Positions 18,510-23,372 of a stretch of DNA of 64,000 nt are shown here, piece by piece. Below the pieces are notes generated by a model, which did not search any database, was not told where the DNA came from, and was given only the letters and a program-made list of their open reading frames with translations. The DNA comes from a bacterium. GTDB taxonomy: Bacteria; Bacillota; Bacilli; Lactobacillales; Streptococcaceae. A program made the position numbers and the translations under genes. The stretch covers positions 1-64,000 of the forward strand of contig CAJNBY010000003.1 of assembly GCA_905221125.1 (NCBI GenBank), written 5' to 3'. The stretch's first letter is position 1. Each line of letters opens with the position of its first letter.

Positions 18510-19724
18510 CTAATCTTCCTTTATAAATATTGCAGTTCTTTTCTTAGTTAGCTTTTTTTCATAACTCTTTATAAGAATAACCAATAAACTACTTAGTAAT
18601 CCCAAAATAACTAGACTTAATCTCGGGTTTAAAAGCCAATTAAAATAAGCAGCCAGTATCCCTCCAAAAGGAGCAAAAATGGTAGCTATTACAAAAGAAC
18701 TAGAAAGTATCTTTCCAATATTATACACAGTACTTTCTTGCTGCTGTATTGTTGTAATCGAAACAGAAGCTATTGTAATTAATCCGCTCAAAATTGAATA
18801 ACAAATTCCAAAAAATATCCAATTTTCTACTATTCCACTCGCCATAATGACAAGTGGGATGGTTGCCATTGATATATTCATCAATATAAAGGCATCCTTC
18901 TTATTCAAAAAAGTAGAAAGAAAGGTTACTGCTATCAAACTACCAAATCCAGCAATTGAGTAAACAATCCCAACAAGACTATTTGATAATTTTAATTGAT
19001 CCTGTAAATAATAAATAATCGTTGCATTGAAGCCTAGCATAGCGATATTCACAACAATAGTAAAGAGTAAAGAAATCCTCAACTTAATATTTGTAAAGTT
19101 CTCTTTAAAACCTACAAAAATTTCTTTTATATCATCATTACCATTCTCCTTGTGTTCTTGATCTGGAATATATGAAATTAGTATTGAAAGAAATAATAAC
19201 AAGAAAGTAGCACTATTAATAAAAAAAATGCTATTAACATTAAACTTTAACATTAGCACCCCTGCTATAGCTGGAGAAATTAATTTTGAAATAGTTCGGA
19301 CACCTTGAAACTGAGAATTATATTTTTGCAATTCTTCCTTCTCAAATAAGGCAGGAGTAATGACTGAAAATCCTGTTTGAAAAAGTGTCGAAAATAAAGG
19401 AATCAAAAATGCAATAACATAGTAAAAGAATATAGAAACTGAATATTTAGATAATATCGGTATTACACTACATAATAATGCCGGTATTAATGTAGACCAT
19501 AATAGTATTTTTTTCTTATTGAAATTATCTAATAAGTAACCCATAACAAATCCCAAGAAGAATTGAGGTAGCAATTCAATAATCACCATTCCTCCCATTG
19601 CAAAAGACGAATGAAATTCTTGGTAAATTAAGATTGGAAAAGCAATTTTCTGAAATCTATCTCCAATATTTGATATAAATTCACCAAAAGTTATTGTATA
19701 AAACGTTTTCTTGTTAATATCCAA
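18510..19724 (-). CDS. MFS exporter (MefA-like topology)
   Basis: This 404-residue transporter has about 12 transmembrane segments. The N-terminal signature GEFISNIGDRFQKIAFPILIY and the cytoplasmic loop LLDNFNKKKIL resemble the MFS_3 subgroup of macrolide and siderophore exporters; the substrate is unknown. The start codon is TTG at 19724, with AAGGA seven bases upstream, overlapping the 87-codon ORF by 11 bp. The region is noticeably more AT-rich than the flanking housekeeping genes. Located downstream of a broken SHP pheromone gene on the same strand, it may once have been a quorum-sensing target and might export a peptide or toxic product. Confidence 0.85.
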   Translation of the reverse strand: MDINKKTFYTITFGEFISNIGDRFQKIAFPILIYQEFHSSFAMGGMVIIELLPQFFLGFVMGYLLDNFNKKKILLWSTLIPALLCSVIPILSKYSVSIFFYYVIAFLIPLFSTLFQTGFSVITPALFEKEELQKYNSQFQGVRTISKLISPAIAGVLMLKFNVNSIFFINSATFLLLFLSILISYIPDQEHKENGNDDIKEIFVGFKENFTNIKLRISLLFTIVVNIAMLGFNATIIYYLQDQLKLSNSLVGIVYSIAGFGSLIAVTFLSTFLNKKDAFILMNISMATIPLVIMASGIVENWIFFGICYSILSGLITIASVSITTIQQQESTVYNIGKILSSSFVIATIFAPFGGILAAYFNWLLNPRLSLVILGLLSSLLVILIKSYEKKLTKKRTAIFIKED

Positions 19725-19977
19725 AATGTTCCTTCTTTCTAGTTAAACCACGATGAATATCACTTTTTATTAAATCGGTAAGACTTATTCCAAACCTCTT
19801 TGCAAGAGTTGGTACCGCACTATTTTCACTTAAACCATACATAGTTACTAACTCAATGAAATATACATCGTCGTCAGATACTCTAAAATCAAGATAACAA
19901 GTACTATCTTTACCTGTACAAGTAAGATTCAACCTCCGACTATAATGATAATATCCATAATCAATAACAATATTCAT
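19714..19977 (-). CDS. Unrecognised 87-codon ORF downstream of the broken pheromone gene
   Basis: I do not recognise this protein. Its first codons overlap the broken shp gene in another frame and have no Shine-Dalgarno; the likely genuine part begins after the shp stop (about residue 17). It contains a short two-cysteine stretch (CTGKDSTC) and a C-terminal segment ending in RKKEHFGY, with no membrane segment. It overlaps the MFS gene by 11 bp, so the two are probably coupled. It could be a small peptide substrate, a small accessory protein, or the remaining end of a larger gene deleted during rearrangement of the region. Confidence 0.4.
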   Translation of the reverse strand: MNIVIDYGYYHYSRRLNLTCTGKDSTCYLDFRVSDDDVYFIELVTMYGLSENSAVPTLAKRFGISLTDLIKSDIHRGLTRKKEHFGY

Positions 19978-20000
19978 GTAAATTTTAAAAGTTTTTTCAT
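19929..20000 (-). pseudogene. Broken SHP pheromone gene (stop at codon 9)
   Basis: Read from ATG at 20000 on the minus strand the frame is MKKLLKFT, then TGA, then ILLLIM and DIIIIVGG, then a final TGA. Aligned with the intact gene at 21420-21488, the in-frame TGA sits exactly where the other has a Leu codon, so one base change (TTA to TGA) explains the loss. The C-terminal eight residues match the type of mature SHP known from Rgg2/Rgg3 systems of streptococci. It is divergent from the truncated rgg at 20078. Confidence 0.85.
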
Positions 20001-20016
20001 ACTGAACCTCCCTTTA

Positions 20017-20046
20017 TTTTTTATTTATTGTATAATAAATAAAAAA
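20017..20046. promoter_or_regulatory. Near-palindromic Rgg operator/promoter, left cassette
   Basis: A 30-bp T-rich/A-rich inverted repeat centred on TTGTATAATA lies between the divergent broken shp and truncated rgg. It matches the perfect palindrome at 21507-21534 apart from one base at the centre. Rgg proteins are known to bind operators in shp promoters, so this is the likely site. Confidence 0.7.
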
Positions 20047-20077
20047 CCTTTGAAATTTTGTTGGGAAAATGGGAAAT

Positions 20078-20335
20078 ATGAAATCAAAACTTGGTATAAC
20101 ACTCAGAAAAATTCGAAAAGGGAAGAAAATAAGTTTAAGTTCAATTGCTGATAGTAATTTATCTAAATCTCAAATCTCTAGATTTGAACGTGGAGAATCA
20201 GAAATCTCTTGTATTCGACTAATCAATATTTTAGATAAATTACATATAACTTTGGATGAATTTATTATTCTTCATGACAATAATTCTACTAGTAGTGTTA
20301 TGAATAACTTCAATATCTTTAAAGCTTTTTGTTAG
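20078..20335 (+). pseudogene. Truncated Rgg regulator (helix-turn-helix only)
   Basis: The first 73 codons (from [11 protein letters not shown], 20078) are identical at the DNA level to the intact rgg at 21567 up to about 20297, after which the sequence diverges abruptly and stops at 20335. The remaining product would be an XRE-type helix-turn-helix of about 85 residues, including Cys45, without the TPR-like pheromone-binding domain. If expressed it might still bind the shared operator, possibly competing with full Rgg. The junction suggests a recent partial duplication or recombination about 1.49 kb from the intact copy. Confidence 0.85.
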
Positions 20336-20392
20336 ATTTATAATTTCAACTATAGCCATCTCTACTTCTTAGTTTACAGCAAAAAATTATGC

Positions 20393-20563
20393 TTAATTTT
20401 TATTGTTTTTGTAAGAAATCAGCGAACCCAATACTATTCCATTCAACAAGCCTAAAGAAATACCATATTCAACTGGAAAATCTAAAAAAATAGCAAACAC
20501 TATTCCAATCATCACCCCTAGTAAGGCTGCTGTTGAAATTACATATTCATTTTCTTTCTTCAT
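20393..20563 (-). CDS. 56-residue small two-helix membrane protein
   Basis: This small ORF starts three bases after the stop of the ABC-transporter fragment and encodes MKKENEYVIS followed by two hydrophobic segments (about 9-27 and 33-51) joined by a short loop (LDFPVEYG) and ends in the lysine/asparagine tail YKNNKN. The tight spacing, codon pattern and operon position next to a peptide-type exporter suggest a genuine gene, perhaps immunity or an exporter accessory. I do not recognise a family. It lies convergent to the truncated rgg. Confidence 0.6.
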   Translation of the reverse strand: MKKENEYVISTAALLGVMIGIVFAIFLDFPVEYGISLGLLNGIVLGSLISYKNNKN

Positions 20564-20566
20564 TTT

Positions 20567-21278
20567 CTATACACCTAATTTCCTTTTTGTATATAAGCTG
20601 TAGTACTCTCCACCAAGAGCCATTAAGTACTTATGACTTCCTGACTCAACAATCTTACCACCTTTCATTACAAAAATAATGTCCGCATCATTAATCGTTG
20701 ACAATCTATGAGCTACAATTATTTGAGTACAGCCCTGACTTTTTATATACTTTGTTATTCTTTCCTCATTAATAGTGTCTAATGCACTAGTTGCTTCATC
20801 TAAAATTACAATACTAGGATTATTTATTAATGCACGTGCCAGTGCTATCCGTTGTCTTTGACCACCTGAAATATTTGAAACCAAATCTGAGATGATAGTG
20901 TTAAATTTCATCGGCATAGCCATGATTTCATCATAGATTTGAACTGCTTTACAAACTTCCTTTATCTTTTGTGAAGTAACTTCGTGCTTTAAAGTTATAT
21001 TGTCAAGAATACTTCTGTTCAATAAAAATGAATCCTGTGGAACTACTCCTAAATTTTGACTTAATATTTTTTATCTATTTGATTAATATTTACACCATCA
21101 AATAAAACTTTTCCTGTGTCAATCTTATATAATCCTGATGGTATTTTTGATAATGTACTTTTTCCTGACCTCGGTTGACCGACTAGTGCAATTCTCTGTC
21201 CTGACTCAATAGTCAAATTTAAATTTTCTATTACAGGAGCTGAGTCTTTGGAATAAGAGAAAGATAGGTCCTTAATAT
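20567..21278 (-). pseudogene. Frameshifted ABC exporter nucleotide-binding domain
   Basis: Two adjacent frames on the minus strand together encode a peptide/bacteriocin-exporter type ATPase domain. The upstream frame begins near IDIKDLSFSY and reads to a stop at 21061-21063; adding one A to the A6 run at 21067-21072 would join it to the downstream frame (QNLGVVPQDSFLLNRSILDN). The downstream part has the signature NISGGQRQRIALARAL, Walker B IVILDEATSALD and the H-loop AHRLST. The P loop reads GQPRSGKST, with Arg in place of the fourth-position Gly of GxxGxGKST. The membrane domain is missing. Clearly decayed, possibly from an NHLM-like or RiPP exporter under SHP/Rgg control. Confidence 0.85.
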
Positions 21279-21356
21279 CTATTCTACTTCAAACGTTTCT
21301 AAACTATACTCCGGAAAATAATTTAACCAATAATTAACCATACTATCTTTCATCAT
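21279..21356 (-). CDS. 25-codon ORF between the pheromone gene and the ABC fragment
   Basis: The frame starts with two Met codons (21356 or 21353) behind GGAGG and encodes MKDSMVNYWLNYFP followed by EYSLETFEVE. It is aromatic and acidic, with no signal or double-glycine motif. It may be a small peptide of the quorum-sensing operon, or the surviving start of a larger gene that a deletion has joined to the ABC ATPase domain; the second seems at least as likely because the ATPase lacks its membrane half. It is too short to call by homology. Confidence 0.4.
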   Translation of the reverse strand: MMKDSMVNYWLNYFPEYSLETFEVE

Positions 21357-21371
21357 GTCCTCCAACCAGTA

Positions 21372-21402
21372 CTAAGTCTTTAGAAGATATCTAAAGACTT
21401 AG
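21372..21402 (-). promoter_or_regulatory. Strong hairpin just downstream of the intact shp
   Basis: A 13-bp perfect stem (CTAAGTCTTTAGA with its complement, 5-base loop) lies 18 bases after the shp stop. It has no T run on the minus strand, so it is more likely an RNA stabiliser, processing site or partial attenuator than a full terminator. The adjoining GGTGTACACC (21402-21411) is a separate 10-bp palindrome. Confidence 0.55.
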
Positions 21403-21419
21403 GTGTACACCTAAACATT

Positions 21420-21488
21420 TTATCCACCGACAATAATAATATCCATTACCAACAATAAAATTAGGGAATTTTTTAAAATTTTCTTCAT
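21420..21488 (-). CDS. shp: SHP short hydrophobic peptide pheromone precursor
   Basis: This 22-codon gene, divergent from rgg, encodes MKKILKNSLILLLV followed by MDIIIVGG. The architecture (MKK start, hydrophobic core, acidic residue, run of Ile, VGG end) is that of SHP pheromones of the Rgg2/Rgg3 family; such precursors are exported, processed by Eep, and the mature C-terminal seven or eight residues re-enter through the oligopeptide permease and bind Rgg. The ribosome site GAAAGGAAG lies 8 bases upstream. The mature part, expected to be DIIIVGG, has one Ile fewer than in the broken neighbouring copy (DIIIIVGG), which may alter specificity. Confidence 0.88.
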   Translation of the reverse strand: MKKILKNSLILLLVMDIIIVGG

Positions 21489-21506
21489 ATTTAGACTTCC
21501 TTTCAG

Positions 21507-21534
21507 TTTTTATTTATTGTACAATAAATAAAAA
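21507..21534. promoter_or_regulatory. Perfect 28-bp palindrome between shp and rgg
   Basis: The sequence centred on TTGTACAATA reads identically on both strands over 28 bp (five T, ATTTATTG, TACAATAAAT, five A). It occupies the divergent shp/rgg promoter region and is duplicated, with one change, at 20017-20046. It is the best candidate for the Rgg binding site. Confidence 0.75.
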
Positions 21535-21566
21535 TCAATTACTTTTTTGTTGGGAAAACGGGAAAT

Positions 21567-22415
21567 ATGAAATCAAAACTTGGTATAACACTCAGAAAAA
21601 TTCGAAAAGGGAAGAAAATAAGTTTAAGTTCAATTGCTGATAGTAATTTATCTAAATCTCAAATCTCTAGATTTGAACGTGGAGAATCAGAAATCTCTTG
21701 TATTCGACTAATCAATATTTTAGATAAATTACATATAACTTTGGATGAATTTATTATTCTTCATGACAATAATTCTACTAGAACTGGATCATTCGCTAAC
21801 TTGGTGCAATATATTCGAAAACACTACTCCTCAAAAAATTTTGCTAGTATTATTGAATTACTATCAAACTCTTCAAGTTTTAACTTGGGTCCTTATGAAA
21901 AGACAATGGTAAAATCGATTCTCTATACCACAAATAAAAATTTTCTCCCCTCGGACGAGGAATTATTACAGCTTACAGATTATCTTTTTAAAGTTGAAAA
22001 CTGGGGTTACTATGAAATTATACTATTAGGTAACTGTGTAAGAACAATTAAATATAACTCCTACTTCCTATTAACTATAGAAATGTTAAAAAATTATATC
22101 TATTCAACATTAAATAAGACAAATAAACGGCTTGTTACACAATTGGCAATCAATTGCCTAATTGTTAGTATTGATAATGAAGAATTTCAAAATTGTAGTT
22201 TTCTAATCAAAGAAATAAAAAAATTACTAAATAATGAATTAAACTATTATGAACAAACCGTCTTCTTATATATATGTGGATATTTTGAATTTAAGCGCAA
22301 TCCTGCGAACGGAATCGAAAAGATGAAACAAGCACTTCAGGTATTTGAAATTCTAGGAGAACATAATATAAAAGCACAGTACCAAGAGCACTATGACAAA
22401 TATATTAATCAATAA
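21567..22415 (+). CDS. Rgg-family pheromone-responsive transcriptional regulator
   Basis: Rgg regulators bind SHP peptides in a C-terminal TPR-like repeat domain and control divergent shp genes and adjacent targets. This 282-residue protein has an XRE helix-turn-helix (about 5-62; [14 protein letters not shown] is the recognition helix region) and a helical C-terminal domain without membrane segments. Cys45 is present, the position reported to form an intersubunit disulfide in Rgg2. It is divergent from shp across a perfect palindrome. Length and layout are normal for Rgg, so this copy should be functional. Its first 220 bases are identical to the truncated copy at 20078. Confidence 0.9.
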
Positions 22416-22458
22416 CATAAAGGTAGTTAATCTTTAACCACCATAGGATTAATTCTTG

Positions 22459-23082
22459 TTATTCCAATAGTATTTCTATACTAAATTTTTTATCAAAATC
22501 CTTATCATTCAGTACTTTTACAAACATTTCTAGATTTTTTATTAAGCTCTCATACTCATAAAGATAATGATCTAGCTCCTCTTGAAACGCTCTTATTTCT
22601 TCGCTTACTTGTTCTACTGTAATTGATTCTGGCAAATTTAATTTTGAAAAGTCATATCTTGCAAGCTTTCGACTGCTCACATCCTCACTCTTCAAATTGA
22701 TAAGCACTTCCGCCATCTTATTTAAGTTGGCGATTTTTTCATTAATTTGATTTAGTTTTATATCTATCACTGCTATTTCTTTTACTAACTCGTCTTTAAT
22801 ATCTTGGTATTTCTTATCTGCTTCAGTTAATTCAATGAAGAGGTTAATCTCAGTAATTTTTTCCTGTAGACTCTTAACTGTAGGTCTTCTGTATGGTATT
22901 ACTCGACTATCGTTGGTCAGCTGTCTTATCAATGTTCGTCCTTTGACATACTGATTCTTATCCGAATGTTCTTTGTTATATACAAAGTATGAGGTTGTCT
23001 CATGTATAAATATTTTATATTTTGTTTGATTCTCTTCTTCCAGAATATCTAATTGATAATTGGGAATAAAAATAAGGACATT
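22459..23082 (-). pseudogene. C-terminal remnant of a Tn5252-type conjugative relaxase
   Basis: An open frame of 207 codons without a credible start runs from just after a stop at 23083-23085. It contains FIPNYQLDILEEENQTKYK, FVYNKEHSDKNQYVKGR and a long coiled coil (about 60-150), the pattern I recognise from the C-terminus of the relaxase of Tn5252-family ICEs (SAG1250-like). The catalytic N-terminal half is absent. A downstream TTG could give a 157-residue product but there is no ribosome site. It lies 200 bp from the 3' end of tRNA-Arg, so an integrated element has probably decayed here. Confidence 0.7.
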
Positions 23083-23300
23083 CTAATAATGGAAGTCCTT
23101 ATTTTCTAACTAATAGATGTCAAAGTTACTTTGCTGATCCACTTTATTCGGCTCTATAATCATTGACCAAAATATAATTTTTGGTCATGATTTGGTCAAA
23201 AAGACAAAAAATACTAAATTATCTTTAAAAATGAACTTGTGATAATTGTCTTTAAATAAACATTTTGAATTTTCTTTGTCTTTCTTTACATTTCTAAAAA

Positions 23301-23372
23301 TGCCCCCTGCAGGAATCGAACCTGCAACTACTCCTTAGGAGGGAGTTGTTATATCCATTGAACTAAGGGAGC
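23301..23372 (-). tRNA. tRNA-Arg (anticodon CCT)
   Basis: Read on the minus strand, a full cloverleaf can be drawn: acceptor GCTCCCT pairing with AGGGGGC (one G-T), D arm GTTC, anticodon stem ACTCC/GGAGT with seven-base loop CTCCTAA, T arm GCAGG-TTCGATT-CCTGC, discriminator A. The anticodon CCT reads AGG. The 3' CCA is not encoded. The gene follows the rplS terminator and borders the remnant mobile DNA on its 3' side, a usual integration position. Confidence 0.95.

Follow-up and report, generated by a model that had tools for sequence, protein, structure and literature searches.

In Streptococcus pyogenes, Rgg3 represses when short hydrophobic peptides (SHPs) are scarce and Rgg2 activates; at high SHP, Rgg3 does not act purely as a repressor. 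The SHPs require PptAB, Eep and Opp (PMC13361665). The same review lists the octapeptide DIIIIVGG for SHP3 and SHP939 and, in Table 1, DIIIVGG for SHP0094 of S. mitis CCUG31611, the partner of Rgg0094. DIIIIVGG was reported to act as an inducer of the S. agalactiae and S. mutans loci and to leave the two S. thermophilus loci tested uninduced (Fleuchot, 2013; PMC3679016). The present analysis concerns a 64,000-nt stretch of a Streptococcaceae contig, from an oral streptococcus (CAJNBY010000003.1 of assembly GCA_905221125.1; hereafter, the window), which carries two divergent shp-rgg cassettes beside a tRNA-Arg gene. As described in the first-pass annotation, one of them is broken in both genes, the left shp by a TGA at codon 9 and the left rgg by an end after its DNA-binding domain, and the other is intact, with an open shp-B frame and an rgg-B bearing both HTH_3 and Rgg_C. 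Compared with its relatives, the island is probably a stranded piece of a mobilizable element in which cassettes of two types, A and B, were fused, with the right pair as the working sensor.

Two allelic cassette types and their join

The relatives were gathered by a protein search (197 Streptococcus genomes), a DNA search (284 genomes) and a scan of named genomes (18 loci), sampled at about one genome per species. In the alignments, a single type-A cassette, consisting of the left promoter and a full-length rgg, was found in G035, G129, G274, G275 and G242, the last of these with a longer operon than the other four. A single type-B cassette, corresponding to 20294-23084 of the window, was found in G075 and G106. 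Both cassettes were present in G128, in the window's order and with the junction at the same point of rgg, near codon 72; this was the only one of the 284 genus genomes to match the join pattern with up to 3 mismatches allowed. The window's junction tail was also found in two metagenomic proteins (P0001 and P0004), and an exact-pattern search of viral contigs gave 0 matches. By these alignments, the locus is a chimera, made of two allelic cassettes that occur one at a time in relatives and are fused here inside rgg. The two-cassette structure annotated earlier does recur in another genome, but the word "duplicated" does not fit halves that are allelic versions meeting at one join. The features of the two cassettes are the following.

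19929..20000, minus strand: shp-A pseudogene, a 23-codon SHP frame with the end DIIIIVGG; the TGA is codon 9 (19974-19976)
20018..20045: left palindrome, probably a divergent -10 region
20056..20077: left conserved box, a candidate Rgg site recognised by eye in relatives
20078..20335 (or from an ATG at 20069), plus strand: rgg-A fragment, DNA-binding domain alone (HTH_3 4.1e-07, no Rgg_C)
20290..20297: join, where the type-A rgg meets the type-B cassette at its left end, with about 3 nt in common
21420..21488, minus strand: shp-B, intact, MKKILKNSLILLLVMDIIIVGG, the same peptide as in G075, G128 and G251
21507..21534: right palindrome
21567..22415, plus strand: rgg-B, an intact Rgg3-like regulator of 282 aa (HTH_3 3.7e-06, Rgg_C 2.5e-46)

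Since G128 shares both the order and the join, an assembly error peculiar to the window was ruled out. On the type-B side the join looks illegitimate, because the letters left of 20294 in the type-B relatives are unlike those of the window and only about three are shared with rgg. A mobile boundary exactly at 20294, where L032, L035, L037, L038 and L039 all break, was considered and dropped, as L035 and L037/L038 have the letters just left of it in common. The full-length rgg genes of both types were 96.2-98.5% identical to the right rgg of the window and would therefore represent one receptor with two pheromone alleles, not two systems; the replacement of one pheromone system by another, suggested in the first-pass annotation, was not borne out.

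The two halves share a direct repeat (20006-20297 and 21495-21786, 95% identical, copies 1,489 bp apart), in which 222 nt (20071-20292) form an unbroken run identical to the right copy. A perfect repeat of this length would speak for a plain segmental duplication, within this lineage, of a single cassette whose left copy then decayed. Nevertheless, the shp halves are only about 70% alike, unlike the near-identical rgg side, and promoter and cargo do not point to one origin for both copies: one promoter matches the type A of other genomes and the other their type B, the cargo is of a different kind on each side, and the same join exists in G128. A simple duplication was rejected on the shp divergence, the promoter types and the single-type relatives, which largely contradict it, and it is considered quite unlikely. 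For some relatives the direction may have been the reverse: type-A singles that occupy this chromosomal site, G129 for example, would be tandems looped out between the direct repeats. Recombination from repeat to repeat would delete 1,489 bp and yield the order of G129, whose type-A promoter is combined with a type-B-like C part of rgg (6 differences to G128, 36 to G035). However, the rgg C parts of G035, G275 and G274 are unlike type B, and frequent exchange would produce the same picture; loop-out is possible for such genomes, though improbable on balance. Fusion of two pre-existing cassette types continues to be the preferred reading.

The left pheromone gene and the lone DNA-binding fragment

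The left-type shp was compared in 11 copies, namely the window and ten copies in nine genomes. The in-frame TGA was observed in five (window, G035, G128, G275 and G149c58); G129 has the same TGA letters, shifted out of frame by one extra base, and five copies (G274, G242, G259, G229 and G149c13) are intact. Judged by this distribution, the TGA of the window is inherited, a damage common to relatives, and the idea of a decay in progress in this genome was abandoned. All six broken copies fall among the seven that have lost the biosynthetic genes and keep a ligase stub (see below), one stub copy being intact; the four copies without the stub all have an intact shp (G242, whose operon is full; G259 and G229, which have a different cluster; and G149c13). 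These copies are not independent, because the TGA may have arisen once. With its SHP frame interrupted and no peptide-binding domain (Rgg_C), the left cassette lacks two of the sequence features of an SHP/Rgg pair.

The rgg-A fragment ends in about 14 non-Rgg residues. In the window its reading frame (ORF) is open, has a promoter region and a start of its own, and includes Cys45, which we take to be the residue forming a disulfide between Rgg2 subunits; these features would suit a competitor of the full Rgg, proposed in the first-pass annotation, that occupies both shp operators. Nevertheless, the truncated allele was damaged in its DNA-binding part in all three other known carriers. In the G128 copy, a deletion of 95 nt shifts the frame, and the start at 20078 is gone. 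A short-protein search restricted to about 47-149 aa returned 95 proteins, two of which carry the window's junction tail: P0001 lacks three residues of the helix-turn-helix (HTH), and the N-terminus of P0004 is changed in the way a frameshift would change it, sequencing error being conceivable in both of these short metagenomic contigs. In the window itself, 0 differences in 215 nt were observed between the left and right DNA-binding halves, an identity reached by one of 66 between-genome pairs (full rgg copies of 12 genomes, the partial G149c24 being left out). Furthermore, a five-site haplotype was the same on the left and the right within each tandem genome (window and G128) and different between the two. 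The identity of the left fragment to the right copy would be best explained by gene conversion, and either conversion or a very young event seems to fit the fragment better than selection for a competitor. Because of the damage in the other carriers, and with the identity in the window attributed to conversion, a competitor role is highly improbable; the rgg-A fragment is most likely an inert pseudogene.

Cargo operons and the mobile-element setting

The type-A operon is full in G242 (L090, 751-8573). Its eight genes are, in order, shp (followed by a hairpin) and those for a 627-aa protein, a DAHP synthase, a class-III aminotransferase, a short-chain dehydrogenase/reductase, a 3-dehydroquinate synthase, a Ddl-like ATP-grasp ligase and a major facilitator superfamily (MFS) exporter. 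The 627-aa protein had no match in Pfam or NCBIfam, and no account of the type-A operon was found in the literature searched, as judged by title or the start of the abstract. This SHP-headed operon perhaps encodes a small-molecule (dipeptide-like) pathway. The left cargo of the window is a deletion remnant of the eight-gene operon, with the last gene, the exporter, as the sole one of full length. The cargo features and the right border of the island are the following.

18510..19724, minus strand: MFS exporter, 404 aa, whose TTG start overlaps with the last codons of the ligase stub (MFS_1 4.3e-29)
19714..19977, minus strand: 87-aa ORF, deletion stub of the ATP-grasp (Ddl-like) ligase (Dala_Dala_lig_C 2.1e-05, profile positions 154-201 of 204)
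20393..20563, minus strand: membrane-like protein of 56 aa at the end of the type-B remnant operon; G075 and G106 have it as well
20567..21310, minus strand: ATP-binding cassette (ABC) ATPase remnant, frameshifted, with ABC_tran on two pieces
21373..21401, minus strand: hairpin that separates shp-B from its cargo; in the window, the corresponding one behind shp-A has been deleted
22459..22932, minus strand: relaxase C-terminal end, a mobile-element remnant (Relaxase_C 4.7e-33)
23301..23372, minus strand: tRNA-Arg(CCT), the island border

The 87-aa ORF runs in frame from an ATG at the shp TGA into the C-terminal end of the ligase, which is of full length in L090; six other left-type copies have the stub as well. 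The TGA creates an ATGA stop-start overlap with this ORF (19974-19977), which in turn overlaps the exporter start, and translational coupling through these overlaps is possible. In G035, a full-length Ddl-like ligase, distinct from the ligase stub, was observed just past the exporter (L031:7701-8660). Exporter copies, 95-98% identical, were found in 12 of the 284 genus genomes (E <= 1e-100), and the nearest NCBIfam models scored far below cut-off.

The right cargo is also ruined, being reduced to the ABC ATPase remnant and the 56-aa protein, for which NCBIfam gave no match. Four copies of the ATPase were read; it is frameshifted internally in the window, G128 and G075, not in G106, and in all four, by reading, the stretch from shp to the ATPase is too short to hold a membrane domain. 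In G229 (L092:9168-9461), a type-A shp stands at the head of a cluster that includes a Subtilosin_A-like precursor, and the cluster of G259 is related to it; a second Rgg gene was noted for the L092/L091 clusters. Since the same type-A shp heads a different cluster there, the cargo behind one SHP promoter appears to be exchangeable.

The hairpin after shp reached -25.8 kcal/mol (z -4.7) in L090 and -17.4 (z -3.0) in the G035 stub; it was less clear in the type-B cassette of the window (-19.1, z -1.9), and the left cassette gave none (z -0.7). By its loop letters it was recognised in six of the 11 left-type copies, including five of the seven stub copies. In the window and G129 it was removed by two different deletions, each of which leaves a frame that stays open between the shp region and the exporter start; in G259, G229 and G149c13, where it is also missing, other DNA lies behind shp. 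In G251, another deletion puts the exporter directly behind shp-B. Because the window and G129 lost the hairpin with the frame open to the exporter, the left promoter might have been kept, once the biosynthetic genes and later its pheromone were gone, as a peptide-inducible exporter switch, a listen-only immunity unit that answers DIIIIVGG or DIIIVGG and pumps out the neighbors' product without making it. This idea is doubtful: the exporter has an internal stop in three of its 12 genomes (G128, G149, where it is in two pieces, and G251).

A full 620-aa relaxase and MobC adjoin the cassette in L031, where it would be cargo of a mobilizable element, and the window retains the relaxase end. At 22459-23372 of the window this end adjoins the tRNA-Arg(CCT) gene, as a scar of such an element. 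G128 and G129 keep further pieces at this site, including a second MFS gene fragment.

The right pair, the promoters and known systems

The right cassette has the sequence features of an SHP/Rgg pair of the Rgg2/3 class: an HTH and an Rgg C-terminal domain, a divergent, short hydrophobic shp-B with an acidic residue and a GG end (...DIIIVGG), and promoter boxes in common with relatives, as recognised by eye. Of the type-B shp copies, those of the window, G075, G128 and G251 are intact, and the G106 copy is frameshifted. Furthermore, rgg-B matched TIGR01716 with 166.8 bits (cut-off 36.9). Its best PDB matches (10lg, 6w1e, 6w1f and 7ji0; 442 bits, E 6.7e-132) cover the full length, Cys45 included, and are presumably structures of S. 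thermophilus Rgg3; the next set of solved chains, at 309 bits, we take to be S. dysgalactiae Rgg2. The right pair is of a known kind, because DIIIVGG is already listed for S. mitis.

The palindromes of the two cassettes are 96% alike, so the earlier observation of the same palindrome in both was correct; its role as the operator was not retained, since the palindrome is more probably a shared divergent -10 region than the regulator's own site. Among the matches listed, the palindrome and a second box (TTTCCCAYTTTCCCAACAAAA) were recognisable by eye, with small changes, in 25 relatives at 71-75% identity. In a 60% relative (L082) the second box was clearer by eye than the palindrome, and in a 38% relative (L087) neither was seen by eye. 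For box 1 (TTTCCCACTTTC), a search for a published motif gave no Rgg paper among the matches listed. Because the promoter boxes are shared, rgg-B with DIIIVGG would be expected to control both promoters.

These results suggest the following course. A piece of a mobilizable element, with an Rgg3-like/SHP switch heading a cargo operon that can be changed, would have been stranded beside tRNA-Arg. The type-A cassette (shp-A, exporter remnant and full rgg) may have lost its biosynthetic genes first and its pheromone afterwards, and the type-B cassette (shp-B, ABC remnant and full rgg) would then have become inserted in the type-A rgg; on the rgg side homology would have served, and on the other side a few matching letters. 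What is left of the type-A rgg would be a pseudogene held identical to the right copy through gene conversion, and the right Rgg/SHP pair most likely the sole working sensor. Without peptide, the right Rgg would hold both promoters down; DIIIVGG, or a neighbor's DIIIIVGG, would open both, the left promoter then driving the exporter alone and the right one shp-B and the wreckage behind it.

Several points, besides the interrupted exporters, weigh against this course. The join is known from just two genomes and two short metagenomic proteins. The haplotype match in G128 is weak support for conversion, because the haplotype is the commonest one and the two G128 copies differ at three other sites, and the identity of the repeat could also mean a very young event. 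Moreover, rgg is a mosaic and its tree has weak support, with 2 of 10 inner branches starred, so that the order proposed for the events is an inferred one.

The case illustrates how a quorum-sensing head on mobile DNA can be recombined, silenced and perhaps re-used in oral streptococci, where one receptor goes with two pheromone alleles and with several cargo operons. It also calls for caution: a broken copy in one genome should not be read as decay without its relatives, and a truncated regulator may merely be kept young by gene conversion, so that a function should not be assumed.

No mention of the fused arrangement or of the remnant pattern was found in the literature searched, most subscription papers being outside its scope. 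Rgg0094/SHP0094 of S. mitis CCUG31611, as given in PMC13361665, has the same mature pheromone core, DIIIVGG, as shp-B; the comparison covers the peptide core, and a fused second cassette is unmentioned in the literature found. The solved regulators 10lg, 6w1e, 6w1f and 7ji0 resemble rgg-B over the full length, whereas the window gene is part of a mobile-element remnant and has a second promoter and a truncated copy as neighbors. Finally, the type-A SHP frame shares the DIIIIVGG end with the Rgg2/Rgg3-SHP2/SHP3 system of S. pyogenes and with Rgg939/SHP939 of S. pneumoniae; in contrast to these systems, the locus in the window combines an intact regulator with a truncated copy, and one of its pheromone genes is dead.

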